Assembly (NCBI GenBank): GCA_943846685.1
Contig: OX044363.1
Location: 1,530,001-1,594,000 of the forward strand
Direction of reading: 5' to 3'
Source of the DNA: an uncultured Pseudomonadales bacterium
GTDB taxonomy: Bacteria > Pseudomonadota > Gammaproteobacteria > Pseudomonadales > Porticoccaceae
DNA: 64,000 bases
The translations under genes were made by a program, and so were the position numbers. Under the pieces are notes generated by a model. That model had not been told where the DNA came from, did not search any database, and saw nothing but the letters and a program-made list of their open reading frames with translations. Positions 3,388 through 54,083 of this stretch are shown here, in pieces (positions within the stretch are counted from its first letter, which is position 1; each line of letters opens with the position of its first letter).

Positions 3388-4748
3388 ATGGCCACTGAAT
3401 TTGATTACGATCTATTTGTTATTGGCGCCGGTTCCGGCGGTGTGCGCGCTGCCCGTATGGCGGCGTCCAAAGGCAAAAAAGTCGCAGTGGCAGAAGATCG
3501 CTATCTTGGCGGCACCTGTGTGAATGTTGGCTGTGTGCCGAAAAAGCTGTTTGTCTATGCCTCGCAATTTCCTGAGTTCTTTCACGCCAGTAAGGGCTTT
3601 GGCTGGACTATTTCCGGGGCGCCTAGTCTCGACTGGGCGACACTGCGGGATAACAAAACCGCTGAGATTGAGCGCCTAAATGGCATCTACAACAATCTGA
3701 TCGACAATAGTGGTGCCGATCTCTTCGATGGCCGAGCAACGGTTGCAGGGCCTCATCTTGTCAGCTGTTAATGGCGAGACTTATAAAGCCAAAAATATTC
3801 TTATAGCGACCGGCGGTTGGCCTTATATACCAGAGTTTCCCGGTAGTCAGCACGCAGTTAGCTCTAACGAGATGTTTTCTCTGGATAAGCTACCCAAAAC
3901 CGCCGTGGTAGTCGGAGGCGGTTATATCGCGGTTGAATTTGCCGGTATTTTAAATGGTCTGGGTGTCGAGACCCATCTAGTTTATCGTGGCCCACAGCTA
4001 CTTAAGTCCTTCGATCGCGAAATGAGCGATAAGGTAAAAGAGGGTATGCAGGCCAAAGGGGTGAATATTCACCTCAATACTCAAATCAATGAGATTAATA
4101 AAACCGCTAATGGATTGTCTGTAGACCTACATACAGGCTCATCACTGGATACTGAGCTGGTTCTCTATGCCACCGGCCGTCAGGCGAATACGGCTAATCT
4201 GGGCCTGGAAAAGACTGCTGTCGTCATGCGTGACAACGGCTCAATTGTGGTTGATGAGTATTTTTCCACGGCAGAGCCGAGTATTTATGCATTGGGCGAT
4301 GTGATTGATCGCGTTCAGTTAACCCCAGTGGCGATTCAGGAAGCTATGGTGCTGGTCGATCATCTCTATGGTGATGGCAGTGCGCAAGATTGATTACAGC
4401 GATATTCCAACGGCCGTGTTCTGTCAGCCAGAGCTGGGCACTGTTGGCCTAAGTGAAGAGCAGGCGCGCTCTGAGTACGCTGATATAGCGGTTTATACCT
4501 CAGACTTTAAGCCAATGCTGCAAACCCTGGGTGGCGGCGCAGACCGTATCACCATGAAACTGGTTGTAGATACAGAGACCGATAGGGTAGTTGGCTGTCA
4601 TATGGTCGGTGAGCATGCCGCAGAGATTATTCAGGGGCTGGGAATTGCGCTTAAAGCCGGTGCCACTAAGGCTCATTTTGATGCCACTGTGGGGATTCAC
4701 CCCTCAGCAGCAGAAGAGTTTGTCACCATGAGAACTCAGGCTAGATAG
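3388..4748 (+). pseudogene. gor: Glutathione-disulfide reductase, broken by two frameshifts
   Basis: Three consecutive reading-frame pieces (3388-3771, 3710-4393, 4368-4748) together give a complete glutathione reductase. Piece 1 has the FAD motif GAGSGG (13-18) and the redox disulfide [13 protein letters not shown] (Cys44, Cys49). Piece 2 has the NADPH-binding GGGYIAVEFA. Piece 3 has the C-terminal dimer-interface active-site motif HPSAAEE. Each junction is explained by one extra base: near 3768 (skipping an A gives HLVAVNGE) and near 4384 (skipping a C gives GSAKIDYSD). No other stop interrupts the chain. It is therefore either a very recently inactivated gene or a sequencing artefact. The enzyme would keep glutathione reduced with NADPH. 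Confidence 0.9.
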
Positions 4749-7427: not shown

Positions 7428-9647
7428 ATGCAGCGCGTTATCGTCATTCTTCTTTTAAGTTTTATCAGTGTCACTACTTTATATAGCTCTATCTACGCAT
7501 CCACAGATGTCGGACTAGGGCCAATAGAAAAACAATCGGAGCAAACCGCACTCTTCCGTGAAATTCTCGATCGACTGGCAACTCGCCATTATCACGGTCA
7601 GAAGATTAATGACGAGCTCTCTGAGCGCTACCTGACAACTTACATTGAAATGCTCGACCCGCTTAAAAGCTATTTCCTGCAGTCTGATATCGAAGAATTC
7701 TCAAAGTGGAAGACCAAGCTCGACGATCTCGCCCGTCGAGGTGATGTAAACCCCGGCTTTATTATGTTTAACCGCCTGCGGACTCAGGCTATTGCCCAGC
7801 ATCAAGCCAATATCGAGCTACTCGAAAGCGACTACGAGTTCGACTTCACCGCTGACGAAACCATTGTATTAGATGGTGAAGAGCGTGACTGGCTGGAAAA
7901 CCCTCTGCAGCGCGATGAATACTGGCGCAAGCGTATTAAAGACTCAATGATCCGCTTACTGCTCAATGATAAAGAGCCCGCTAAAGCCCGAGAATTGCTG
8001 ATTAAGCGATTCACCAACCAAAAAAAGCAGATGCAACAACGCGATAGTCAGGACGTATTCCAGCTCTATGTCAACGCCCTAGCCTCGCTCTATGACCCGC
8101 ATACAGCCTATTATTCACCGCGCACCACAGAGAACTTTCAGATCAATATGTCGCTCTCCCTTGAGGGTATCGGCGCTGAGCTGACCATTGAAGATGAATA
8201 TACAAAGGTCGCGCGGATTATTCCCGGTGGCCCAGCAGATCTGCAGGGACTTCTAAAAGCTGAAGATAAAATAATTAGTGTCGGCCAGGATGATAAAGAA
8301 CTGGTCGATGTGATTGGCTGGCGCCTTGACGATGTGGTCGATCTTATACGCGGGCCCAAGGATTCAACGGTTCGCCTTGAGCTGATTAATGGTGCCAGCG
8401 ACTCAGCAGATAGCACAGAGGTTATTGCCATTGTTCGCGACAAGGTAAAACTCGAAGAGAAATCTGCCCAGAGCAAAATTATCAATATCAATCAGAATGG
8501 GGTTGAAATGCGCCTTGGGGTGATTGATATCCCTGCCTTCTATATGGACTTTGAAGCCTATCGCAAGCGCGACCCGGAATACAAAAGCACTACCAGAGAT
8601 GTCTACAAACTGTTGATGGAGATGCGTGAGGAGCGAGTTGACGGGATTATTCTCGATCTGCGCAACAATGGCGGTGGCTCCCTTCACGAAGCCACCATGC
8701 TTACCGACCTGTTTATTGATTCTGGCCCGGTAGTGCAGATTCGCAATGCCTATCAGCAGGTATCCCGCGATCAACGGGCTACCTCGCGAGCAGTCTATAA
8801 CGGCCCTCTTCTGGTTATGATCAATCGCCTTAGCGCCTCGGCCTCGGAGATTTTTGCCGGTGCAATTCAGGACTATGACCGTGCCTTAGTGGTTGGCAGT
8901 CAAAGTTTTGGCAAGGGCACGGTCCAGGATGTTACCGGCCTTAGCAGTGGCCAGCTTAAGCTGACTATATCCAAGTTTTACCGCGTCTCTGGCGATAGCA
9001 CCCAACATCGCGGCGTACTGCCTGATATAGAGTTTCCCTCGCTTTACAACAAAGAAGAAGTCGGCGAGAGCCACAAGGACAATGCCCTGCCCTGGGATAA
9101 TATTCATGCCGTGCCATTTAAGCGCTCTGCGGGTGTTAAGCAATATGTACCGTTGTTAAATACAGCCCACCAGCAACGTATAAGCAGTGATCCTGACTTT
9201 GTTCATCTGGTTAAACAGCTTGAGTTTAGCGATAGCTGGGATGCCGATAAAACAATCTCTTTAAGTATTGAAAAACGCCGTTTGCGTTCCGCCGAATGGG
9301 ATAATCAGCAGCTGCTATTGGAAAACCAGCGCCGCAAGAGCAAAGGGCTAGAGCTCTATGCTGACCGCGATGCATGGAAAGCGGCCAATAAAGACGATGA
9401 TGAAGATGAGGTTAAAGATGAAGTTAAAGAAGGCCTCGAAGACAATAAGCCGAAAGCCAAAGAAAACCAAATGGTAGCCGACGAAAAAGAAGCTAAAAAC
9501 AAGGAGGAAGAGGAGGAGGAAGAAGATATTGCTGAATCTGACCCCATGCTTCAGGAAGCCGGCTATATCCTTTCTGACCAGATTCGAATAGTTGAAAAAC
9601 CCAATAATAAGCAACTGTTAGTGTTGCGCCAGAATGGAGAGAAATAG
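7428..9647 (+). CDS. prc: Carboxy-terminal (tail-specific) protease Prc
   Basis: This periplasmic S41 serine protease of 739 residues degrades proteins with nonpolar C-termini and regulates cell-wall hydrolases. The start at 7428 is chosen because AAGGA precedes it and it opens a signal peptide (MQRVIVILLLSF, cleavage near SIYA-S). Next come a helical N-terminal domain, a PDZ domain (about 238-330) and the protease core. The catalytic Ser is near residue 471 (NRLSASASEIF) and the Lys near 496 (SFGKGTVQ). A DUF3340-type C-terminal helical domain follows. A 50-residue highly acidic insertion (Glu/Asp/Lys, around residues 655-705) is unusual. xthA follows after two bases. Confidence 0.95.
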   Translation: MQRVIVILLLSFISVTTLYSSIYASTDVGLGPIEKQSEQTALFREILDRLATRHYHGQKINDELSERYLTTYIEMLDPLKSYFLQSDIEEFSKWKTKLDDLARRGDVNPGFIMFNRLRTQAIAQHQANIELLESDYEFDFTADETIVLDGEERDWLENPLQRDEYWRKRIKDSMIRLLLNDKEPAKARELLIKRFTNQKKQMQQRDSQDVFQLYVNALASLYDPHTAYYSPRTTENFQINMSLSLEGIGAELTIEDEYTKVARIIPGGPADLQGLLKAEDKIISVGQDDKELVDVIGWRLDDVVDLIRGPKDSTVRLELINGASDSADSTEVIAIVRDKVKLEEKSAQSKIININQNGVEMRLGVIDIPAFYMDFEAYRKRDPEYKSTTRDVYKLLMEMREERVDGIILDLRNNGGGSLHEATMLTDLFIDSGPVVQIRNAYQQVSRDQRATSRAVYNGPLLVMINRLSASASEIFAGAIQDYDRALVVGSQSFGKGTVQDVTGLSSGQLKLTISKFYRVSGDSTQHRGVLPDIEFPSLYNKEEVGESHKDNALPWDNIHAVPFKRSAGVKQYVPLLNTAHQQRISSDPDFVHLVKQLEFSDSWDADKTISLSIEKRRLRSAEWDNQQLLLENQRRKSKGLELYADRDAWKAANKDDDEDEVKDEVKEGLEDNKPKAKENQMVADEKEAKNKEEEEEEEDIAESDPMLQEAGYILSDQIRIVEKPNNKQLLVLRQNGEK

Positions 9648-9649
9648 CC

Positions 9650-10462
9650 TTGCCCGAACGTATTATTTCATTTAATGTCAATGGCTTACGCTCCAGACTT
9701 CATCAATTACAAGCAGTTATCGACGAGCACTCTCCGGCCATTATTGGCCTTCAGGAGACCAAAGTCAGCGATCAGGAATTCCCCATCGAGGCGATTAATG
9801 ACATGGGCTATCAGGTCGTATACCACGGTCAAAAAGGCCATTATGGGGTTGCCCTGCTAAGCAAAAACCCCGCGCTGTCGGTAACCCGCGGTTACGCCAG
9901 CGATGATGAAGAAGCCCAGCGGCGTATGATTCATGGCCAGTACTGCATTGACGGCCAAACGGTTCATGTTATTAACGGTTACTTTCCCCAGGGTGAAGGA
10001 CGTGCCCACCCGACCAAATTCCCCGCCAAAGAGAAGTTTTACGCTGACCTGCTCGACTATCTGCAGAATAACTTTAGCACTGAAGACCTGGTTCTGGTGA
10101 TGGGTGATATGAATGTTGCGCCAGCGGATATAGATGTCGGCATTAAACCTGAGAATGCCAAGCGCTGGATTAAAACCGGCAAATGCGCCTTTTTACCGGA
10201 AGAGCGACAATGGTTACAAAACCTCAAAGACTGGGGCCTGCAGGATAGCTTTAGAGCAATGAATGGTGAAGTCAATAGCTACAGCTGGTTTGACTACCGC
10301 AGCCGTGGTTTTGAGCAGGAGCCCAAGCGTGGTCTGCGTATAGATTTAATTCTGGCGACACCTGCGGCCATGCAATTGCTCAGCGCCACCGGTATCGACA
10401 GCGATGCCAGAGGGTTTGAAAAGCCCTCCGACCACTGCCCTATCTGGGCTGATTTGGGCTAA
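9650..10462 (+). CDS. xthA: Exodeoxyribonuclease III
   Basis: This 270-residue cytosolic AP endonuclease and 3'-5' exonuclease works in base-excision repair. It starts MPERIISFNVNGLRSRL, and has the metal ligand Glu in LQETKV (about residue 37), VMGDMNVAP (about 150) and the C-terminal catalytic SDHCPIWAD. A TTG start at 9650 fits best: GGAGA (9637-9641) is 8 bases upstream, and a later ATG would remove the first beta strand. It starts 2 bases after the prc stop and is likely cotranscribed with it. Confidence 0.94.
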   Translation: MPERIISFNVNGLRSRLHQLQAVIDEHSPAIIGLQETKVSDQEFPIEAINDMGYQVVYHGQKGHYGVALLSKNPALSVTRGYASDDEEAQRRMIHGQYCIDGQTVHVINGYFPQGEGRAHPTKFPAKEKFYADLLDYLQNNFSTEDLVLVMGDMNVAPADIDVGIKPENAKRWIKTGKCAFLPEERQWLQNLKDWGLQDSFRAMNGEVNSYSWFDYRSRGFEQEPKRGLRIDLILATPAAMQLLSATGIDSDARGFEKPSDHCPIWADLG

Positions 10463-10582
10463 CTTTCACTCCAACGGAATAACGCCAACAATATAATTCC
10501 AACATATTAATTCCTTATCAGGGTCAACCAATCTCCACAGCTGTCGTTGTATATCGCGACACTTTAGAACAAGGAGAAAGGT

Positions 10583-10996
10583 ATGAGGCAGGCACTGATT
10601 GCATTGACCCTAAGCGCGGGACTGCTAGCTTATCCAGCCACGGCGTTGGCTGATTCTGATAAATCCCACAAACATAAGAAATTCAGCGACCACAGCCATC
10701 TAAAGCATGATCGAGCTATTCATAACGCCAGATCTGAGCGACGGCTTAATCGTGAGCATCGAAAAGCTATAAAAAGACAGCACAGAATTGCCAAATACCG
10801 CCACTACAGCGGCCACAACTATAAAAAATGGCAGGCGCGCAGGCATTATCAGGCCCACAATCATTATCGCCACTACCACAGCAAGCAGCACAGACGATCA
10901 CTCAAGCACAGGCATTCCAGCCATGATAATGACTATCTTGAATGGATCGCTATTATGCTTCTGCTCGATGAAGCTTTAGACGATGACTATCGCTAA
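10583..10996 (+). CDS. Histidine/arginine-rich small exported protein
   Basis: This 137-residue protein is of unknown function. A signal peptide (residues 1-23, cleavage after TALA) leads to a mature chain very rich in His, Arg, Lys and Tyr (motifs HKHKK, NHYRHYHSKQ). A short hydrophobic acidic C-terminus follows (YLEWIAIMLLLDEALDDD). AAGGAGAAAGG lies just before the ATG. The composition suggests periplasmic metal or polyanion binding, but this is inference. It stands 46 bases upstream of an ECF sigma factor open frame on the same strand and may belong to its regulon. No family was recognised with confidence. Confidence 0.75.
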   Translation: MRQALIALTLSAGLLAYPATALADSDKSHKHKKFSDHSHLKHDRAIHNARSERRLNREHRKAIKRQHRIAKYRHYSGHNYKKWQARRHYQAHNHYRHYHSKQHRRSLKHRHSSHDNDYLEWIAIMLLLDEALDDDYR

Positions 10997-44704: not shown

Positions 44705-44795
44705 GGTGGGATGGCAGAGCGGTTGAATGCACCAGTCTTGAAAACTGGCATACGTTAATAGCGTATCTAGGGTTCGAATCCCTATCCCACCGCCA
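44705..44795 (+). tRNA. tRNA-Ser (anticodon UGA)
   Basis: The acceptor stem GGTGGGA pairs with TCCCACC and CCA is encoded (44793-44795). The anticodon stem CCAGT/ACTGG closes the loop CTTGAAA with anticodon TGA (44739-44741). The long variable arm (CATACGTTAATAGCGTATC) is typical of tRNA-Ser, and the T-arm has GGTTCGAATCC. Total length is 91 nt. Confidence 0.97.
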
Positions 44796-44834: not shown

Positions 44835-44967
44835 CCGGTGGGATAGGGTGAGAACCCTAGCGGGTTCGACAAAACACATCGTGTTTTGGACGCCGAAGGC
44901 GGTCCGCAGGACTGTTTATTAGCCTTCAGGCTAATAAACATCAATCCCTTCTACACGATCCCACCGG
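44835..44967. repeat. Nested hairpin element downstream of tRNA-Ser
   Basis: Outer 10-bp arms CCGGTGGGAT (44835-44844) and ATCCCACCGG (44958-44967) enclose three hairpins: CAAAACAC/GTGTTTTG (44870-44888), a GGACGCC/GGCGGTCC hairpin with a bulge (44888-44905), and the 12-bp TGTTTATTAGCC/GGCTAATAAACA (44913-44940). The left arm and following bases resemble the complement of the tRNA-Ser 3' end (GGTGGGATAGGG...GAACCCT), suggesting an origin by inverted duplication of the tRNA tail. Confidence 0.75.
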
Positions 44968-45011
44968 CAATCATTAAAAGCACCAATAAAAGACCCGGCA
45001 GACGGACGAAG

Positions 45012-45040
45012 TTAGAGATCCTTCGACTTCACTCAGGATG
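45012..45040 (-). repeat. Dispersed 'TGTCATCCTGA...GGATCT' repeat, third copy
   Basis: On the minus strand this reads TGTCATCCTGAGTGAAGTCG then AAGGATCT, a variant of the tandem pair at 1849-1914. It lies between tRNA-Ser and the end of the CotH-domain gene. Confidence 0.65.
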
Positions 45041-45110
45041 ACAGCTTTTATTTATTCGAGAGAGCATTAACAAACCTGATTGGGCTACAGCTTGCTAAAG
45101 TTACCCAGCA

Positions 45111-46205
45111 CTAAAGATCACCCAGAGCCTCATTCAACCAATTCATACGCTGAACATACCAATCCTTCATATGATCAACCTCTTCCTGATAGGTGTCGTA
45201 AACAACCGGATTAGGCCACACATAGCTACCAATGGTCTGCCACTTATCATTGTTCTCCTGCTGCGCCCATTTTAATTGAGTCGCATAGGTATCAATTTTT
45301 TCCAGCATTGTGGCCTGGTTATCTCTAAAGTACGCAAAGCGATCCTGCACCAACGCAACAAAAGCCGGATCCTGAAATAACCTGCTATACCAGGGGTTAT
45401 TCTTAATCCAAAAACCCTCTGCATAACGACTATCGGCATAGTCAACATTGCCGAAAGACAGATCGAAATCCCACAGCGGCCCCATCTTAATCTTTTCATT
45501 GGGCATGACATTTAGATAGATACTGGAGAACGAAACGGAATCGACATTCTTGGTGATTTCACTGATCAGGTACCAATCAATAAAACTCGGCAAATCAATA
45601 AACGAGGCATAACCTATGGTTGGATCCATAAAGTTACTGCCGAACAAAGCTGTTTCAAAGTTGTTGATAAGGTCGCGGATATAAACGAATTGGGCATCAT
45701 TAGCGACCAGACTGGGCTCTTTGATATTGAGTAAGAAAGTCCCGGTTTCAAAATAGACATCATCCGGGTCGAGTCTAAATATCTGGTCAATTTCCAATAG
45801 ATAGCCTGTATCCCCAAGGGCTACACGCCTATTGGTCTCTTCAACCTTTTGAACAATATTATAGGTGCCATTATATTGGTTATTGATAAACACTTCGGCA
45901 AAAGTGCTCTCAGGTGTCCAGTCGAGATCGCTGATATAGCCCATCTCAAACGCAATACGATTTCTCAATAAGGTTTTATCAGAGTACTCAGCAAGAAAAA
46001 TCCATTTCTTATCTTTGGGCATATCAAGGAATTCTTCCTTGCCTTCAAACTTCATCTGGTAGGGTTTTTTCGGGTGCTCCCCAAGTTGAATTACCCCTGC
46101 CCCTGATTTCAATAGCCAGTTCAGGAAAATCAGTGAAACCACGACCACCATCGACAGAAACTGTGCCCAGTACATAGTCATCTTTGGAATCAATGCCAAC
46201 ACCAC
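45111..46205 (-). pseudogene. CotH kinase domain, 3' part of the frameshifted RCC1/GH16/CotH gene
   Basis: From about 46080 leftward this frame encodes the body of a CotH-type secreted kinase domain: HPKKPYQMKFEGK, KDKKWIFLAEYSDKTLLRNRIAFEMG, SIYLNVMPNEKIKMGPLWDFDLSFG (a DxD metal motif equivalent to DFG) and a long C-terminal helical tail ending LNEALGDL. Its N-terminal strand (AIEIRGRGNSTW) lies in the neighbouring frame of fragment 46045-46539. One extra G in TGGGGAG near 46080 accounts for the break. CotH proteins phosphorylate Ser in partner proteins. The amino acids encoded before 46085 in this frame are spurious. Confidence 0.8.
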
Positions 46206-46539
46206 CCAGAGTATTAATATTTACAATCGGCAAGCCGGTAAATTCAGCCAGATCCACTGCAATAGTAGCCTCAAGACCGTCATTACCTACAATCGTATAA
46301 TTGAGAGGATTGCTAAAATCGTTGCTTGTAACACCATCAGACTGATCTATACCATCGACAGAGATAGATTCACCAGCTTGCTGAAAACTGGCAACCAGAT
46401 TGTCGACGCTATCGCCAATCGCTGCCCTTCCCGATAAGACCCCATTCTCCAAACTGAGATTAATATCAGAACTTAGACCGGGATTATCAGACTGCAGGAA
46501 CGAGAATTGAGCTAAGCGTTGGCTGGTAGACACGCACAT
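46045..46539 (-). pseudogene. DUF5018-like linker domain and start of CotH, middle part of the frameshifted gene
   Basis: This frame, meaningful from about 46515 to 46085, encodes QFSFLQSDNPGLSSDINLSL, then DGVTSNDFSNPLNYTIVGNDGLEATIAVDL, the cadherin-like DUF5018-type domain that often precedes CotH. PIVNINTLGGVGIDSKDDYVLG and the CotH opening motif IEIRGRGNSTW follow. It joins the GH16 end in fragment 46487-46810 by one extra base near 46505-46520. It leaves the frame just after the Trp. Confidence 0.75.
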
Positions 46540-46810
46540 AGTCCACCTGCATCTGCTGAGGGAAGCTGGTGCTGTTATCGGGATAACCGGGCCACTGACC
46601 TCCGACGGCTACATTCATTATAAAAAAGAACTCTTCGTGGAACTCTGTCCTATCTGACGAGGTTATCTGCTGGGACGCAAACTCAACGCCATCCACCAGC
46701 CACTTAATAGACTGGCTATCCCACTCAATACTAAAGGTATGGAAAGCATCGGCAAAAGTGTTGGCACAACCAATTGCCTGACAGGAAACAAGGCCAACTG
46801 AATCACCCAC
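46487..46810 (-). pseudogene. C-terminal half of the GH16 glucanase domain, part of the frameshifted gene
   Basis: This frame continues GH16: GDSVGLVSCQAIG, FADAFHTFSIEWDSQSIKWL, VDGVEFASQQI, FFFIMNVAVGGQWPGYPDN and the closing strand MQVDYVRVYQ, all typical of bacterial GH16 laminarinases. It is separated from the first half by one missing C in a run near 46819-46821. Restoring it gives AEITAPHQYVGDSVG. Confidence 0.85.
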
Positions 46811-49800
46811 ATATTGATGGGAGCCGTTATTTCAGCGTAGTGAATAGTGCCGTGAATGGTATCCTCACGACCATCACCACCAATCATTTCCATAATATCT
46901 ATCTCGCCAGATGCGGGCCAACCTACAGAGTCAAAGCGCTCACCCAACATCCAGATAGCCGGCCACAGGCCCTGCCCTTGTGGTAGCTTGGCACGAACGT
47001 CTATACGACCATATTTAAACGACTGCTTACCTCTGGTTATCAATCGCGATGAGGTGTATTCGGCACCATTAAAGTTCTCTTCTTTGGCTTCAATTGTTAA
47101 CAGTCCATTGGCAACCGTAGTATTTTCTTCGCGGTAGAACTGGGACTCTTGATTACCCCAACCATTACTCCCTCGACCTGTTTCAAAGGTCCAGTCAGAC
47201 TTATTAACAGCACTGCCATTAAACTCATCACTCCAGGCCAGAGAATAGCCGCTGTATGAAGTTGGCGTGTAATCTACTTGCGGCTCAGATGCCCCCTCCT
47301 GCACCTCCCAGCGGATATTATCCAGTTGATAAACTGTATTAGCCGCCGCTACGGGCCAGATAACCAGGCCAGTACTTACACTGGTTAAATCAAGTCCGTT
47401 ACTGGTCAATGTAGAGACCGGAATACTAACGGTCTGCCAACCGGCGCTGCCCTGACTACCCAGATCAATATTGTTGGAGGCACAGGGATATACACAGTCG
47501 ACTTTGGCTACGAAGTTGCTATCACCGGCAACAGACTTAATATCAAAAACAAGATTGCCATTGGCAGCGGCGCTAAAATCACGTCCAGCACTGGAAGCGA
47601 AATACATACCCACATAGATGCCGGTATCTGCGTGACTGACTTGCAGCACATCGCCGCGCTCCGAATCGCTGACTAGAGACCAGGAAACATTGGGGCAGCC
47701 TGCGCCATTGTCATTGTAACAACTGGCATAATCCTGACCGGAATCAAAGGCCGCCAGACCAACATCCCAGCCGTTGTCGACAATACCATTGGATAACACA
47801 TTGGCTAGAACAGTGGGCTGAGGTTGCGGATCTACGATGACAGAATCCGAGCAGGCATTAGCAACAGCCCCTGAAATTTCCCCGGAACCAACAATCCATT
47901 GTCGGTTTGTAAAGCTGAAATAGTCGGTGACCATTGCACCGCTATTTATTTCGTTTGAACATTCTGCATTGGCAGCGTTGGAGATAAGATTCTCTTGAAT
48001 ACCATCAATCACCCAGAGGTATTCCATATCTTCAGCCGGCATAGGATCCAATATCACAGACCATGTGCCGTTATTGTTGTTAGTAGCCACTGGACCAGCT
48101 GCGACATCCCAGCCCCACAATGGACCCGTTATTCGTACAGAACTGGCGCTATCCGCGCGGACGGTCATAGTGAGCTGCGAGGAACCTGTTCCGCCGCCTG
48201 TTATATCATCGGCAATACAGGTGCCGGCAATATCATCAGTTACAACCCCCCTATCGGGATTCCAGATACGGTTAAACCAAGTATCTGCATAGCCTGCAAA
48301 ATACACCGAAGAACATTCCCCAGCTCGGTAATCACTTGAAAAGTCCTCCTGAATATCATCAACTCGCCATTTGTAATCGACCTGTGATGTCCACGAGGGA
48401 TCAACAATCAAAGTCCAGGTGCCATCACCGTTATCGCTAGCAAAACTATCGGCACGGCCAATTTCCCAGTTGTAAACACTCGCCTGCATAGACACAGAAG
48501 ATGCACCGGGTGCAGATACCGTAAATGAGGTTGTATTGAGGTTCGGGGGATGTGCATTGTCGCCAAGTCCATCGCCATTTGAATCGGTAGTTTCTGTTGG
48601 ATCCAGCGGAAAGTTGTCGAGGGTATCCGAGACGCCATCGCTATCATTATCAGTGACATACTCAAGCGCTGGAACTGTGCGCTTACCTTTATCGTCATTA
48701 CCCCAACATACCGCTCCAGTATCATCCTGAGCACAGGCGTGATTGTAACCCACACTTAGCTGAGTTGGATTCGACAGGCTTGGAACATTAACGATGTTTG
48801 GAGCACCCCAACAGGTCACACCATTATCATCAATGGCACAGGTTGAGAAACCACCGGCACTGATCGACGTTGGGTTAGACAGGGCAGGAACTGCAATGCG
48901 TGAGTCCTCCTGTCCCCAACAGGTCACCCCGTTGTCATCGAGCGCGCAGGTATGGATATAACCCGTTGTTACCTGTGTTGGATTAACCAGACCCGCTGGT
49001 ACTTTGCGCTGCTTCTTGTGGTTACGACCCCAACACTCAACACCGTTGTCGCCAATCGCACAGCTGTGCTCAACACCCGCATCAATCTGCGTGGCATTAA
49101 TCAGGCTTGCCGGTACAGTCGAGCGCTTAAAGGCGTCAGAGCCCCAACAGACAACACCAGTATCATCGAGCGCACAGGTATGGATCTTGGAAGCGGCAAT
49201 CGCTGTCGGGTTAGACAAAACCGGAACGGTAGCCTGTCCCTGGTGATCACGACCCCAACAAACTACACCAGTGTCATCGATTGCACAGGCGTGCTCGAAG
49301 CCAACAGACAAGGTAGTTGGGTTAGACAGTACAGGAGCAGCACGTTGACCGTACTGGTTAGCACCCCAACAGGACACACCGTTGCGATCCATTGCACAGG
49401 TGAACTTGTTACCGGCACCCACATAGTAGTCAACCGCTAATGGATTACGACCCGTTTCATTTTCCAGAACATCGGGAATACCGTCGTTATCATCGTCTGT
49501 ATCGGCGTTGTTACCAATGCCGTCGCCATCCGTATCTGCAGATTCATCTGCATCAAGGGGCATGTAATCTGAACCATCTGGCACAGAGTCACCGTCAGTA
49601 TCAGAGACCAACATATCGGTGCCTAATAACAGTTCATCAGCATCGGAGAGTCCATCGCCATCGTTATCGGTGATATGAGTGAGAACCGCAGGCGTCCGCT
49701 TGCCCTTGTCATTGTTACCCCAACAAACGACACCAGTCATATCCTGAGCACAGGCGTGGTTGAAGCCAACACTGACCTGAGATGGATTAACCAGAGCTGG

Positions 49801-51108
49801 AACAGCAATGATATTCGCCGCACCCCAGCAAGTTAAGCCATTATCATCAATGGCACAGGTGGATAAGCCACCAGCACTGACCTGAGTTGGGTTAGATAAT
49901 GTATCGGGAACCTGACTACGGGCATCGGCGACACCCCAACAGGTCACACCGTTATCATCAACCGCACAGCTATGGATATAACCCGCCGATACCTGCGTTG
50001 GGTTAACCAGACCAACTGGAACCTTGCGCTGTTGCTTGTGGTTGCGACCCCAGCACTCTACGCCGTTGTCGCCAATCGCACAGGTATGTTCAAGACTAGA
50101 ACTGATCTGAGTGGCATTAACCACTGAAACTGGTATATCGGAGCGTTTAAAGGTATTGGAACCCCAACAGACAACACCGCTATCATCAATTGCGCAGCTA
50201 TGATCTTTAGCCGCTGAAATAGCTATTGGATTAGATAGTACCGGCGGTGTTGTTTCGCCCTTTTCGCCACGACCCCAGCAGACAACACCAGAGTCATCGA
50301 TCGCACAGGCGTGCTCGAAGCCGACCGACAGTTGAGTAGGGTTAGACAGAATTGGGGCTAAACGCTGACCGTACTGATTGGCGCCCCAACAGTTGATACC
50401 ATTGCTATCCAGCGCGCAGGAGAACTTGTTACCTGTGCCCACTGCGTAGTCAATACCCTGAGGATTACGACCTGAGGCTATTTCCAAATCATCTGGAATA
50501 CCATCGTTATCATCGTCCGCATCGAGACTATCAACGATGCCATCCCCATCTGAGTCAGGACCAGATACGCCCTGATTGATAATAATATCTGTGCTGATAA
50601 AACCAAAATCATTGGCGCCAGATATTTGTGAAAACTTTAGGGTTGTACCAGAAAAGCCAATCTGTGCGGTACAGGGCAGCGTGAAGAGAGTTGCAGGTAG
50701 AGCTACGGTAGAAGGCCAAGAAGCAGTAATACTGGCCCAAGCGACATTTAAATACTTATCAGTCGCAGCATCATTATCGTAATCATCAGTATCATTACTC
50801 AGCTGAAGCCCCATATTGGATTCAGGCAATAGATCGGTTATTGCAGTCTGATCACAGGACAGTGCTGTGCTGTCATAGTGAAGCCGTAAACCTATACCAA
50901 CCGTAGGCACTTGATCAGTAATATTATAGGTTATAGAAATAGACGTTGACTCTCCTTCGAGAATCGTCGGAGAAGATAAATCTGCCTCAATAATTTGATC
51001 TTTGGCTGAGACCCCAAAAGGAACCAATAGCAAAGAAACCGCCAAAGACAAAACAAAACTTTTGATCAGACTATTATTTAAATAGCCTATATTCAAATAA
51101 CCTAACAT
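46663..51108 (-). CDS. Secreted multidomain protein: cohesin-like, TSP3, two RCC1 propellers, CBM-like modules, GH16 (frameshifted 3' end)
   Basis: The first 1,430 codons are in frame. Order: signal peptide (1-35, cleavage at VSA-K), a cohesin-like beta-sandwich (38-180), TSP3 calcium repeats (184-205), a seven-blade RCC1-like propeller (218-477), TSP3 (478-550), a second seven-blade propeller (557-816), TSP3 (818-852), two related CBM-like domains (857-955, 975-1080), a galactose-binding-like module (1097-1270), and GH16 from 1285 with the catalytic GEIDIMEM (Glu1402 and Glu1407). After residue 1430 the frame is lost, and GH16, the linker and CotH continue in the three fragments to 45111. 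The intact form would be about 2,000 residues and probably bind and cleave beta-1,3-glucan outside the cell. Confidence 0.88.
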   Translation of the reverse strand: MLGYLNIGYLNNSLIKSFVLSLAVSLLLVPFGVSAKDQIIEADLSSPTILEGESTSISITYNITDQVPTVGIGLRLHYDSTALSCDQTAITDLLPESNMGLQLSNDTDDYDNDAATDKYLNVAWASITASWPSTVALPATLFTLPCTAQIGFSGTTLKFSQISGANDFGFISTDIIINQGVSGPDSDGDGIVDSLDADDDNDGIPDDLEIASGRNPQGIDYAVGTGNKFSCALDSNGINCWGANQYGQRLAPILSNPTQLSVGFEHACAIDDSGVVCWGRGEKGETTPPVLSNPIAISAAKDHSCAIDDSGVVCWGSNTFKRSDIPVSVVNATQISSSLEHTCAIGDNGVECWGRNHKQQRKVPVGLVNPTQVSAGYIHSCAVDDNGVTCWGVADARSQVPDTLSNPTQVSAGGLSTCAIDDNGLTCWGAANIIAVPALVNPSQVSVGFNHACAQDMTGVVCWGNNDKGKRTPAVLTHITDNDGDGLSDADELLLGTDMLVSDTDGDSVPDGSDYMPLDADESADTDGDGIGNNADTDDDNDGIPDVLENETGRNPLAVDYYVGAGNKFTCAMDRNGVSCWGANQYGQRAAPVLSNPTTLSVGFEHACAIDDTGVVCWGRDHQGQATVPVLSNPTAIAASKIHTCALDDTGVVCWGSDAFKRSTVPASLINATQIDAGVEHSCAIGDNGVECWGRNHKKQRKVPAGLVNPTQVTTGYIHTCALDDNGVTCWGQEDSRIAVPALSNPTSISAGGFSTCAIDDNGVTCWGAPNIVNVPSLSNPTQLSVGYNHACAQDDTGAVCWGNDDKGKRTVPALEYVTDNDSDGVSDTLDNFPLDPTETTDSNGDGLGDNAHPPNLNTTSFTVSAPGASSVSMQASVYNWEIGRADSFASDNGDGTWTLIVDPSWTSQVDYKWRVDDIQEDFSSDYRAGECSSVYFAGYADTWFNRIWNPDRGVVTDDIAGTCIADDITGGGTGSSQLTMTVRADSASSVRITGPLWGWDVAAGPVATNNNNGTWSVILDPMPAEDMEYLWVIDGIQENLISNAANAECSNEINSGAMVTDYFSFTNRQWIVGSGEISGAVANACSDSVIVDPQPQPTVLANVLSNGIVDNGWDVGLAAFDSGQDYASCYNDNGAGCPNVSWSLVSDSERGDVLQVSHADTGIYVGMYFASSAGRDFSAAANGNLVFDIKSVAGDSNFVAKVDCVYPCASNNIDLGSQGSAGWQTVSIPVSTLTSNGLDLTSVSTGLVIWPVAAANTVYQLDNIRWEVQEGASEPQVDYTPTSYSGYSLAWSDEFNGSAVNKSDWTFETGRGSNGWGNQESQFYREENTTVANGLLTIEAKEENFNGAEYTSSRLITRGKQSFKYGRIDVRAKLPQGQGLWPAIWMLGERFDSVGWPASGEIDIMEMIGGDGREDTIHGTIHYAEITAPINMWVIQLALFPVRQLVVPTLLPMLSIPLVLSGIASLLSGWWMALSLRPSR
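48661..49440 (-). repeat. RCC1-like array 2 of the GH16/CotH gene (7 units)
   Basis: Seven units of about 37 codons encode blades of the form HxCAxDDxGVxCWGxN...VPxL. Each unit contains two cysteines about nine residues apart. Units are closely related to array 1 (49678-50457) and to both arrays of the upstream paralog. Confidence 0.9.
49678..50457 (-). repeat. RCC1-like array 1 of the GH16/CotH gene (7 units)
   Basis: Seven units run from KFSCALDSNGINCWG to HACAQDMTGVVCWG. A TSP3 block (DTDGDSVPDGSDYMPLD) separates this array from array 2. Corresponding blades of the two arrays are more alike than neighbouring blades, showing that a whole seven-blade unit was duplicated. Confidence 0.9.
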
Positions 51109-51310
51109 TGCAGCATCTTCACCTCAATTAGAATTACCTAACGCTCTTAAATAGCTTTTTTATTATGTATTGAAGATTTAAAAATGTATATACAAACATC
51201 GATCAATCCACCCGCTGAAAAAGGCTTAAACAGGCGACGAAGGAGAAGCTGTTAGAAAAAATATTTCGAAACTGCAAGACGACTTAAGCACTCAATTTTT
51301 TTAACCCATA

Positions 51311-51346
51311 AAAAAACTCGCCATGATTTCCCATGGCGAGTTTTTT
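51311..51346 (-). terminator. Intrinsic terminator after the RCC1 paralog
   Basis: AAAAAACTCGCCATG / CATGGCGAGTTTTTT pair perfectly over 15 bp around ATTTCC, 17 bases beyond the stop of the 820-codon gene, with T-runs in both directions. It implies separate transcription of the two tandem paralogs. Confidence 0.93.
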
Positions 51347-51362: not shown

Positions 51363-53825
51363 CTACTGAACAGCGGCATCAATTGGATCGCTGTCGACAG
51401 CATCTTCCACGCCATCACTATCGTTATCCGTGACATATTCAAGGGTTCCAGGAACCGTACGCTTGCTCTTATCGTTGTTACCCCAACATACCGCACCAGT
51501 ATCATCCTGAGCACAGGCATGGTTGTAACCCACGTTGACCTGAGTCGGGTTAGAGAGGTTTGGAACATTAACGATGTTTGGAGCACCCCAACAGGTCACA
51601 CCATTGTCATCAATCGCACAGGTTGAGAAACCACCAGCACTGATTGACGTTGGGTTAGACAGTGCAGGAGCTGCACTACGTGAGTCCTCTTGCCCCCAAC
51701 AGGTCACACCGTTGTCATCAATCGCACAGGTATGGATATAACCTGAAGACACCTGCGTTGGGTTAACCAGATCAGTCGGTACCTTACGCTGCTTCTTGTG
51801 GTTACGACCCCAACAAACAACGCCGCTATCACCAATCGCACAGTTATGCTCTGTACCTGCATCAACCTGCGTTGGGTTCACTAGGTTGGCTGGAACTGTT
51901 GAACGCTTAAAGCCATTCGAACCCCAGCACACTACACCAGTGTCATCAGTCGCACAGGTGTGCAGCTTACCTGCTGCTACCGAAGTCGGGTTTTCCAGCG
52001 CAGGTACTGTTACCTGACCCGCGTTATCTCGACCCCAACAAACTACACCAGTGTCATCGATCGCACAGGCGTGCTCGAAGCCAACAGACAGCTTGGTCGG
52101 GTTAGACAGTGCAGGCGCAGCACGTTGACCGTACTGGTTAGCACCCCAGCAGGACACACCGTTGCTATCCATTGCACAGGTGAACTTGTTACCTGCACCA
52201 ACGTAGTAGTCAACCGCTAATGGATTACGACCCGTTTCATTTTCCAGAGCATCTGGAATACCGTCGTTATCATCGTCCGCGTCAGCGTTGTTACCAATGC
52301 CGTCGCCATCAGTATCTGCAGTTTCACCTGCATCAAGCGGCATGTAATCTGAACCATCTGGCACAGAGTCACCATCAGTATCAGTAACTAGCTTGTCAGT
52401 ACCTAACAACAGCTCGTCAGCATCAGAGAGGCCATCGCCGTCGTTATCGGTAACGTGGCTCAGACCAACAGGAGTACGTTTGCCTTTGTCGTTGCTACCC
52501 CAACAAACAACACCAGTATCATCCTGTGCACAGGCGTGGTTGAAATCAACGCTTACCTGAGTTGGATTAACCAGAGTTGGAACAGCAATGATATTAGCAG
52601 CACCCCAACAGGTTACGCCGTTGTCATCAATGGCACAGGTTGATAATCCACCTGCACTTACCTGAGTTGGGTTAACCAACGTATCAGGAACTACAGCACG
52701 TGAATCCTGCTGTGTACCCCAACAGGTAAGGCCATTGTCGTCAATCGCACAGCTGTGGATATAACCTGCAGACACCTGCGTTGGGTTAACCAGACCAGCT
52801 GGTACCTTACGCTGTTGCTTGTGGTTACGACCCCAACACTCTACGCCGTTGTCGCCAATCGCACAGGTATGTTCAACACCCGCATCGATCTGCGTAGCAT
52901 TAACCAGAGTTTCAGGAACTTCTGAACGCTTAAAGCCGTTCGAGCCCCAGCACACTACACCAGTGTCATCGATCGCACAGGTGTGCGTCTTAGCTGCCGC
53001 AAGTGCAGTTGGGTTAGTTAGAGCAGGAACTGTGGTCTGCCCAAGATGACCACGACCCCAACAGATAACACCAGAATCATCGATCGCACAGGCGTGCTCG
53101 AAACCTACTGACAACTCAGTTGGATTAGACAGTGCAGGCGCAGCACGCTGACCGTACTGATTAGCACCCCAACAGGTCACACCATTGCTATCCAGTGCAC
53201 AGGAGAACTTGTTACCTGTACCTACTGCATAGTCAATACCCTGTGGATTACGGCCTGAAGCAATTTCCAATGCATCTGGAATGCCATCACCGTCTGAGTC
53301 GATATTAGCCACACCTTGATTGATAGTAATCTCAGCTCCGACAAAGCCAAAACCACTGGCTCCGGAACTGCGTGAGAACTTTAAAGTTGTACCAGCAAAG
53401 CCTTCAAGTGCAGTACAGGGAAGCGTATAAAGTGTAGCCGGCAGAGAGGCACTGGAAGGCCAGGCACCATTAACACTAGCCCAGGCTGCATTTAAATATT
53501 TATCAGTTGATGAGTCATTATCATAATCATCAGTATCATCACTAAGCTGCATACCTATACTGGAATCGGTTAATAGATCAGTTATCCCAGCGTCATCACA
53601 GGACAGCGCCGAGCTATCAAAGTGAAGGCGAAAACCCAAGCCGGTGGCAAGCTCTTGATTAGTGGTAGTGTAAGTCATTGAAATGGATGTTGACTCACCT
53701 GCAAGAATCGCCGAAGAAGATAAATTTGCATCGATAATTTGATCTTTTGCGCTGGCCCCGAAAGCCGCCAACGTCGAAGACAAAACAAAACTTTTAATAA
53801 GACTATTATTTAAATAACCTAGCAT
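51363..53825 (-). CDS. Secreted protein with cohesin-like domain, TSP3 repeats and two RCC1 propellers
   Basis: This 820-residue exported protein has a signal peptide (1-26, cleavage after GASA), a cohesin-like beta-sandwich (30-172), TSP3 (175-188), propeller 1 (196-455), a TSP3 block (458-525, DNDGDGLSDADELLLGTD and so on), propeller 2 (538-795) and a short TSP3 tail. It is a tandem paralog of the first 830 residues of the neighbouring GH16/CotH gene but ends after propeller 2 without any catalytic module. Each of the 14 blades has a Cys pair (CAIDD...CWG), suggesting disulfides in an extracellular protein. Function is unknown; adhesion, ligand binding or a partner for the enzyme are possible. 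Confidence 0.9.
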   Translation of the reverse strand: MLGYLNNSLIKSFVLSSTLAAFGASAKDQIIDANLSSSAILAGESTSISMTYTTTNQELATGLGFRLHFDSSALSCDDAGITDLLTDSSIGMQLSDDTDDYDNDSSTDKYLNAAWASVNGAWPSSASLPATLYTLPCTALEGFAGTTLKFSRSSGASGFGFVGAEITINQGVANIDSDGDGIPDALEIASGRNPQGIDYAVGTGNKFSCALDSNGVTCWGANQYGQRAAPALSNPTELSVGFEHACAIDDSGVICWGRGHLGQTTVPALTNPTALAAAKTHTCAIDDTGVVCWGSNGFKRSEVPETLVNATQIDAGVEHTCAIGDNGVECWGRNHKQQRKVPAGLVNPTQVSAGYIHSCAIDDNGLTCWGTQQDSRAVVPDTLVNPTQVSAGGLSTCAIDDNGVTCWGAANIIAVPTLVNPTQVSVDFNHACAQDDTGVVCWGSNDKGKRTPVGLSHVTDNDGDGLSDADELLLGTDKLVTDTDGDSVPDGSDYMPLDAGETADTDGDGIGNNADADDDNDGIPDALENETGRNPLAVDYYVGAGNKFTCAMDSNGVSCWGANQYGQRAAPALSNPTKLSVGFEHACAIDDTGVVCWGRDNAGQVTVPALENPTSVAAGKLHTCATDDTGVVCWGSNGFKRSTVPANLVNPTQVDAGTEHNCAIGDSGVVCWGRNHKKQRKVPTDLVNPTQVSSGYIHTCAIDDNGVTCWGQEDSRSAAPALSNPTSISAGGFSTCAIDDNGVTCWGAPNIVNVPNLSNPTQVNVGYNHACAQDDTGAVCWGNNDKSKRTVPGTLEYVTDNDSDGVEDAVDSDPIDAAVQ
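51441..52214 (-). repeat. RCC1-like array 2 of the 820-residue paralog (7 units)
   Basis: Seven blades run from KFTCAMDSNGVSCWG to HACAQDDTGAVCWG. Blades 4 and 6 (CAIGDSGVVCWGRNHKKQRK; CAIDDNGVTCWGAPN) are nearly identical to blades 4 and 6 in array 2 of the downstream gene. Confidence 0.9.
52461..53240 (-). repeat. RCC1-like array 1 of the 820-residue paralog (7 units)
   Basis: Seven blades run from KFSCALDSNGVTCWG to HACAQDDTGVVCWG. The position and length match array 1 of the downstream gene, showing that the two genes duplicated after both propellers existed. Confidence 0.9.
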
Positions 53826-54007
53826 TGCAGCATTTACCCCTCAGATAAACTTTATATATTTTTTATACAACTTATACAATTCTTGATTATGAGTCGAAAA
53901 TTCAAAAATGTATATAGTAAACTTAACCACTGTATAGGCGAATAAAAAACGAGAAAAATGCGCAAAAAAAAAGATAAATAACGATAAAAACTATTTGTTC
54001 AAAAAAG
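53826..54007. other. AT-rich 5' region of the RCC1 paralog
   Basis: No gene is seen in this 182-base AT-rich stretch between the start of the 820-residue paralog and tRNA-Arg. It resembles the start region of the downstream paralog around 51109-51190 (GCAGCAT followed by TTCACC or TTACCCC, then TATATTTTTTATAC-like AT runs), so the promoter was probably duplicated along with the gene. Confidence 0.5.
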
Positions 54008-54083
54008 TGGTCTCCCCTTCAGGAGTCGAACCTGAAATTCAAGCTTAGGAGGCTAGCGTGATATCCAATTTCACCAAGGGGAG
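54008..54083 (-). tRNA. tRNA-Arg (anticodon CCU)
   Basis: The acceptor stem CTCCCCT pairs with AGGGGAG, followed by discriminator A and encoded CCA (54010-54008). The anticodon loop CTCCTAA has anticodon CCT (54049-54047), and the T-arm TCAGG-TTCGACT-CCTGA is intact. The anticodon stem CTAGC/GCTTG has one T-T mismatch. It resembles E. coli argW, a tRNA gene often used as an integration site. Confidence 0.92.

Follow-up and report, generated by a model that had tools for sequence, protein, structure and literature searches.

A Candidate Cohesin-Propeller Adaptor Encoded beside a GH16-CotH Gene in a Porticoccaceae Bacterium

We analyzed a stretch of 64,000 nucleotides (hereafter the window) from the genome of an uncultured Porticoccaceae bacterium (assembly GCA_943846685.1, contig OX044363.1, positions 1,530,001 to 1,594,000) and, within it, the gene P0001, whose 820-residue product has in order a signal-peptide-like start, a cohesin-like domain some 145 residues long, a TSP3-like linker, a first propeller, a second TSP3-like linker, a second propeller, and a short acidic tail. 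The interpretation that we tentatively favor makes P0001 a secreted adaptor or receptor that is not itself an enzyme, has a single cohesin, and binds a glycan or a surface through its propellers. The cohesin-type domain would dock one secreted protein carrying a dockerin-like module, and the two BLIP-II-type propellers would bind a second partner, most likely β-glucan or the surface of a cell or particle, with the effect that laminarin-type glucanases would be held at their substrate or at the cell. The adjacent gene has the same front half fused to an enzyme of its own. We infer the secretion of P0001 and, going from fold to binding, its cohesin–dockerin contact and the ligand of its propellers.

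Pfam scans identified no catalytic domain in P0001, and neither an S-layer domain nor any other known anchor. As a reading made earlier from the sequence alone had it (the sequence-only reading), P0001 duplicates the front of the neighboring gene and then stops: the two are 79.1% identical in DNA over 2464 bp and 81% identical in protein, after which the alignment ends. Both genes also have, as judged by eye, the signal-peptide-like N-terminus that had been ascribed to them.

Evidence for a Cohesin Fold

To denote sources we use G000 for the genome of the window, other G numbers for genomes of congeners, and L numbers for stretches extracted from them. A profile (A4) was built from 20 homologs of the P0001 N-terminal domain from the genus. 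Twelve of its members match Pfam Cohesin (best value 4.5e-8), and relatives of this domain family pass the Pfam cut-off (PF00963) in 5 of the 50 genus genomes. Because the domain had a mean confidence (predicted local distance difference test, pLDDT) of about 25 in the model of full-length P0001, it was also folded alone. The resulting 149-residue model is a nine-stranded all-β sandwich (pLDDT 58, predicted template-modeling score 0.54). Its top Foldseek match is a cohesin-like module of Clostridium perfringens (2jh2, E = 0.013), and rows 1–27 of a VIA comparison, ahead of the first other fold, are all cohesins or pieces of scaffoldins (Z from 8.3 to 6.9), with OlpA, CipA, and the non-cellulosomal 2xdh among them. 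The label "cohesin-like" that the domain had received from its sequence is thus supported by the Pfam matches of its family and by both structural comparisons, and the structure prediction that had been suggested as a check, run on the N-terminus of P0001, gave the cohesin-like sandwich. We conclude with moderate confidence that the modeled domain has the nine-stranded cohesin fold.

Searches for the domain found it in 22 of the 50 genus genomes; elsewhere in the order, a sample of 144 genomes contained no match at E 1e-5. Two proteins in G000 have it, P0001 and its neighbor, with one domain in each chain. A classical cellulosome or scaffoldin is ruled out by this single cohesin per chain and by the count of two in the genome.

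The main rival explanation makes P0001 a plain adhesin of the surface, or a binder of glycans, in which the cohesin fold serves as a stalk. The domain would then be structural or calcium-dependent and dock nothing, and the propellers would do all the binding. We regard this as possible though somewhat doubtful. It fits the presence of four residues that are invariant in all 20 aligned A4 members (D67, D72, T77, and D78) and that may bind calcium. It also fits the company that the domain keeps elsewhere: among nine scanned congener proteins that have the domain and no RCC1 repeats (L039–L043 and L045–L048), six are large proteins of the HYR/cadherin/invasin type, with the domain at the head and no recognized enzyme. 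Pilin, CLIPPER, and PrgB Ig-like domains are likewise matched by the model, for the most part at lower ranks, and a secreted binder is known among RCC1/BLIP-II propellers. What such an adhesin leaves unexplained is that the cohesin-like domain tends to occur in the same genomes as dockerin-like modules and that the two kinds of module are encoded side by side in a series of congeners (L153–L157), as we now describe.

Dockerin-Like Modules in the Genome and in the Genus

The sequence-only reading had proposed looking for dockerin-like partners elsewhere in the genome. Pfam Dockerin_1 (PF00404) has no match in G000 and matches in 3 of the 50 genus genomes. A duplicated module with the pattern WD.D.NG..DALTDGLLLLRYLFG comes after the cohesin-like domain in certain congeners, and we assembled a second profile (A3) from eight dockerin-like modules taken from cohesin proteins and their neighbors in three genomes. 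The A3 alignment contains tandem D.D..G..D repeats, that is, two calcium-loop-helix repeats, and its top three matches in the PDB are type I dockerins, all of them weak (E 0.15–0.38). At E 0.01, A3 matches 32 of the 50 genomes, including G000. Where Pfam had given nothing, this congener-built profile uncovered five modules in G000. Three of these cover most of the profile with scores above 100 bits, and the other two matches are weak or partial.

The five modules reside in a protein with GH3, CBM6, and di-haem oxidoreductase (DHOR) domains, the last of a type that we take COG3488 to denote; in a GH16 protein with TSP3 repeats; in a reprolysin-like protease; in a protein with LRR_5 repeats; and in a protein with ubiquitin-like and cadherin domains. 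The modules are located in G000:C1 at 1689058, 2095456, 1603686, 1044755, and 1111733. All five hosts are probably secreted, to judge by eye from their starts, that of the GH3 frame not being fixed. The GH3 host is an open frame of 2113 codons (L203 148–6486, minus strand, in G000:C1) with galactose-binding-like, dockerin-like, GH3, CBM6, and di-haem oxidoreductase domains. The last host is an 877-residue frame (L204 2504–5134, minus strand, in G000:C1:2091000–2101000). Its N-terminal part, a ubiquitin-family match at E 1e-25, follows a start that by eye resembles a signal peptide and precedes the dockerin-like module and the cadherin domains.

Across the 50 genomes, taken as independent of descent and with A3 scored at E 0.01 and the cohesin at E 0.001, A3 modules are present in 21 of 22 genomes with the cohesin-like domain and in 11 of 28 without it (Fisher p = 2.8e-5). 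The single exception, G027, has a cohesin copy that contains two stop codons. The association is also seen among the 30 more complete genomes (≥90% complete, ≤5% contaminated), with 17 of 18 versus 4 of 12 (p = 0.0006). In five genomes (G008, G034, G035, G043, and G014) the cohesin and a dockerin-like module lie side by side in one chain, and the co-occurrence there is therefore trivial. With the genomes judged to be of this single-chain kind set aside, the counts are 13 of 14 versus 11 of 28 (p = 0.001); the judgment was made from the frames listed, and the dockerin rows of G002 and G046, which belong to the 13, are not among the matches listed, so that their arrangement in cis or trans is unproven. 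On a tree of rsmE (covering 35 of the 50 genomes, with 13 of its 32 inner branches well supported) it takes eight changes to explain the joint cohesin/A3 pattern, well-supported branches forcing at least four of them, and the close relatives G022, with both modules, and G041, with neither, differ jointly.

A number of observations count against docking. On the cohesin side, the P0001 domain itself matches no Pfam family; a sequence search of the PDB with A4 returned no cohesin and one unrelated match (E = 6.3); Foldseek gave the model, which is of modest confidence, no match with E below 0.001 and placed a CLIPPER adhesin domain third; and VIA itself describes Z values near 8 as borderline. 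A single cohesin per chain, moreover, precludes a multi-enzyme scaffold. On the dockerin side, the calcium loop of A3 is one residue longer than that of type I dockerins, and seven of the eight A3 members match Pfam Dockerin weakly (best 0.015), the one whose score is shown falling below the cut-off. G041 has Pfam-type dockerins without this cohesin, the A3 module is found in 11 of the 28 genomes that lack the cohesin, and A3 varies without the cohesin in several close pairs on the rsmE tree (e.g., G011/G021 and G020/G040). The association statistics are not corrected for descent and are subject to ascertainment bias, because A3 came from cohesin-bearing proteins and their neighbors. Finally, adjacent cohesin and dockerin modules in one chain may be a structural unit.

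Two Seven-Blade Propellers

P0001 contains 14 PF13540 (RCC1) repeats arranged as two propellers of seven blades each, and the blade register, the model, and the Foldseek matches agree that each ring closes. Every blade has two cysteines in a core of the form CA.DD.GV.CWG. In the full-length model the 10-residue means of pLDDT range from 43 to 87 over the propellers and mostly exceed 65. Foldseek aligned them best with BLIP-II (3qi0; E = 2e-18, with a TM-score over the target of 0.78); UVR8 and the ectodomains of the CR4/ACR4 receptors came next, and the closest solved relatives by sequence are likewise BLIP-II. Counted along the sequence, the blades do not vary in their Cys/CWG core, and their most variable parts in comparison with G017 include the loop after CWG. 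RCC1/BLIP-II proteins are a recognized and mostly bacterial group of propellers with a secreted binder among its members (PMC9218822).

RCC1 repeats are present in just 6 of the 50 genus genomes. A third RCC1 locus in G000 (L034 4528–9397, in G000:C1:1166000–1185000) encodes CBM48-like repeats and RCC1 blades in shifted frames; Pfam identified no catalytic domain there, and by eye it lies upstream of genes that resemble molybdenum-cofactor genes. In G017, an RCC1 protein (L037 5580–9035) ends by eye in one dockerin-like repeat, and the next ORF (open reading frame; 9275–10888) presumably encodes a GH30 glucanase.

A Hotspot between Two tRNA Genes

P0001 and its neighbor lie between a tRNA-Ser(tga) gene on the rne side and a tRNA-Arg(cct) gene on the rsmE side, both of which are also seen in G017, G022, G041, G025, and G018. 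The region between them is a hotspot with changing cargo. In G041 almost nothing separates the two tRNA genes, whereas its close relative G022 has two genes with dockerin-like modules near rsmE; so do G039 (one of them partial) and G044, and G025 and G038 have a subtilase. Large proteins of varying kind are likewise the cargo of the hotspot across the genus (L036, L162, L163, L165, and L166).

A cohesin-like gene is found beside rsmE in five distant congeners (L153–L157). These stretches were picked from 15 rsmE stretches since a cohesin-like match near rsmE had already been placed in them; two others (L158 and L159) are too short to judge. Reading from the rsmE side, L154–L156 contain a non-catalytic cohesin-dockerin gene, then a dockerin-bearing di-haem oxidoreductase gene, and then a gene for a protein with GH16, cohesin, dockerin-like, and CotH domains; L153 breaks off within the second gene, and L157 is a short stretch, so GH16-CotH was found in the three that were read far enough. 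The oxidoreductase was recognized by Pfam in L154 and by homologs in L155, L156, and L153, and CBM48 was matched in the GH16-CotH gene of L154 alone. The small cohesin gene is reversed in L156 and L157. Another gene follows CotH in L154 and L155, and these stretches stop short of the rne side. The proximity of the cohesin gene to GH16-CotH in L154–L156 indicates that the pairing of a non-catalytic cohesin with GH16-CotH extends to distant congeners. No run of RCC1 blades was matched in L154–L156, where short matches lie in TSP3 linkers; propellers at this locus were seen in G000, G033, and G017 only, which are also the only genomes among 30 shorter rsmE loci with a cohesin within 1.5 kb.

Exchange between Loci and Species

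G033 retains an ortholog of P0001, of which the N-terminal 439 codons and the last 57 codons are found at contig ends in matching places, and the tail is nearly the same there and at the third RCC1 locus of G000. The paralog is thus neither missing nor degenerate in all relatives, an outcome that the sequence-only reading had named as fatal to its proposal. In G017 the locus exists in a single-gene version, without a separate P0001.

The neighboring gene, which had been taken for a catalytic copy, proved larger than assumed: the shared front half stands, and behind the cohesin-like domain and 14 RCC1 blades follow CBM48-like, galactose-binding-like, GH16, and CotH domains. In this assembly it is divided into four pieces by three single-base indels (one deletion and two insertions relative to G033), with GH16 and CotH in different frames, although its G033 counterpart is a single ORF of 1998 codons. 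The copy in G017 is split as well, elsewhere in the gene, and the third RCC1 locus of G000 is similarly broken. These breaks could be either real mutations or sequencing errors.

Nor is the neighbor the closest copy for the propeller part. The propeller DNA of P0001 is 96.4% identical over 1934 bp to the third locus, which lies 0.4 Mb off in G000, compared with 84.4% between P0001 and the syntenic G033 ortholog in the 1321 bp that are available; the comparison was also made in 100-bp steps. Within the neighbor, the front half, measured in 200-column steps, is 88–100% identical to G033 and 54–75% identical to G017. At position 48603 the identity flips, and the catalytic half, down to 44884, is 97.3% identical to G017, as against 78–85% for five surrounding genes compared between G000 and G017. 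The catalytic half has thus moved between species in recent time, with the join at the border of propeller and CBM, and these alignments support the view that cassettes are exchanged in the locus.

Such exchange raises the alternative that P0001 is a by-product of recombination or a donor in it: a truncated, gene-converted duplicate that supplies the enzyme with a store of propeller variants or has little function of its own. The higher identity of its propellers to the third locus than of P0001 to its G033 ortholog, the sharp switch of modules at 48603, and the absence of a separate P0001 from G017 would all follow. Yet it is P0001 that is intact and the neighbor that is frame-shifted; P0001 keeps its own start region, a terminator-like hairpin, and the cohesin-like domain, and its G033 ortholog has nearly the same tail; a non-catalytic cohesin gene stands beside rsmE in distant congeners; and no tract leading from P0001 into the enzyme was found. 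The cassette pattern does not demonstrate P0001 as a donor. We consider this alternative unlikely. Of the reservoir for recombination that the sequence-only reading had envisaged, what holds is that propeller segments are common to the loci and that a catalytic half has moved between species; no transfer from P0001 to the enzyme was demonstrated, and the proposal is unproven.

Could the pair be in part an artefact of assembly, near-identical repeats having been misjoined or broken and the indels being sequencing errors? The G033 contigs do break within these repeats, and in G000 and G017 alike the giant genes contain frame breaks. However, the tandem order with its flanks is found independently in G033, where the P0001 N-terminus lies beside rsmE (C28) and the P0001 end lies upstream of the intact enzyme (C41). 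Moreover, an alignment of 48 G033 ORFs to the window, in which overlapping loci enter some genes twice, has a net frameshift in just two genes, the neighbor and the gene at 3396–4748. An artefact is accordingly the least probable of the explanations, and a very improbable one. The gene at 3396–4748 has two single-base indels relative to an intact G033 ORF of 453 codons.

Comparison with Known Systems

Cohesin-like and dockerin-like modules outside cellulosomes were reportedly treated by Peer et al. in 2009, and the Archaeoglobus module 2xdh is said to be another such case. A search of open-licence PMC text, within the terms used, revealed no report of a cohesin-RCC1 protein, of this Porticoccaceae pair, or of a cohesin-propeller protein beside a cohesin-propeller-GH16-CotH enzyme; within that scope the arrangement is new among the non-cellulosomal cohesin/dockerin systems. 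The C. perfringens modules (2jh2, 2w1n of GH84C, and 2vo8 of GH33) resemble the present case in that 2jh2 is the best fold match and in being single cohesins on secreted carbohydrate-active enzymes; they differ in being clostridial, in having another type of dockerin partner, and in not being known to have propellers. The single-cohesin anchoring scaffoldins OlpA and OlpC, which have one cohesin and no enzyme, are also matched by the domain (3ul4 and 4dh2, respectively), but P0001 has no S-layer or other known anchor by Pfam and belongs to a Gram-negative host. Like BLIP-II (3qi0, 3qhy, and 1jtd), its best match in sequence and in fold, P0001 has seven-blade propellers of the RCC1 type; unlike it, P0001 has two of them in tandem with two cysteines per blade, and nothing suggests that it binds β-lactamase.

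A further close parallel is Saccharophagus degradans 2-40, a marine gammaproteobacterium without a classical cellulosome, for which the 2008 report lists six ORFs with cohesin-like modules and two with dockerin-like motifs, describes β-1,3-glucanases with TSP3 and cadherin-like modules, includes COG3488 among the module abbreviations of a table, and poses docking between the two kinds of module as a question for future study (PMC2386152). The two organisms are alike as marine gammaproteobacteria with cohesin-like and dockerin-like modules and no classical cellulosome. In the present genome, by contrast, the cohesin shares its chain with RCC1 propellers or with GH16-CotH, the locus is bounded by tRNA genes, and the dockerin-like module with which the cohesin co-occurs goes unscored by Pfam.

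The scaffold/receptor pair put forward in the sequence-only reading gains support from the cohesin-like model, the five dockerin-like modules, and the rsmE-linked cohesin genes, and is unproven. A broader proposal, which we advance as speculative and rather unlikely, is that this marine, aerobic, free-living genus has a β-glucan cohesin–dockerin system of its own, in which genus-restricted cohesins on propeller proteins would dock tagged GH3, GH16, and other secreted proteins, and in which docking and binding cassettes would be swapped between loci and species at the tRNA hotspot, retargeting enzymes. G000 offers a small, closed set: its cohesin-like domains number two and its dockerin-like modules five, of which two belong to the GH3 and GH16 hosts. 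Whether such modules dock in a marine Gram-negative species that has no classical cellulosome is therefore a question directly testable in it. The exchange of modules between species is, for its part, a natural experiment in swapping the binding half of an enzyme.

Features of the Window

Viral contigs gave no pattern match and matches to plasmids were distant (all 24 records below 60% identity), and an origin of P0001 from a phage or virus or from a plasmid was rejected. Promoter-like matches were no more numerous than in shuffled sequence. The coordinates of all features are collected in Table 1.

Table 1. Features of the P0001 locus, in window coordinates
Feature	Position	Strand	Remark
tRNA-Ser(tga)	44705..44795	+	Hotspot edge, rne side
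Block 97.3% identical to G017	44884..48603		Edge at propeller/CBM junction
Neighbor, piece 4: CotH kinase domain	45111..46220	-	Frame-shifted
Neighbor, piece 3: before CotH	46045..46608	-	Frame-shifted
Neighbor, piece 2: GH16 end	46487..46831	-	Frame-shifted
Neighbor, piece 1: cohesin-like, 14 RCC1 blades, CBM48-like, galactose-binding-like, GH16 start	46663..51108	-	
Cohesin-like domain of neighbor	50599..50982	-	
Promoter-like site upstream of neighbor	51162..51190	-	Weak; sequence identical to that of P0001
Perfect 15-bp hairpin with A/T flanks, between P0001 and neighbor	51311..51346		3' of P0001; likely P0001 terminator
P0001, 820-aa non-catalytic protein	51363..53825	-	ORF intact
Propeller 2, seven blades, RCC1/BLIP-II type	51453..52205	-	aa 541-791
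Propeller 1, seven blades, RCC1/BLIP-II type	52470..53228	-	aa 200-452
Cohesin-like domain of P0001	53343..53726	-	Match to profile A4
Promoter-like site upstream of P0001, TATACA-17-CATAAT	53886..53914	-	Weak
tRNA-Arg(cct)	54008..54083	-	Hotspot edge, rsmE side

The hairpin between the two genes is likely to be the terminator of P0001.

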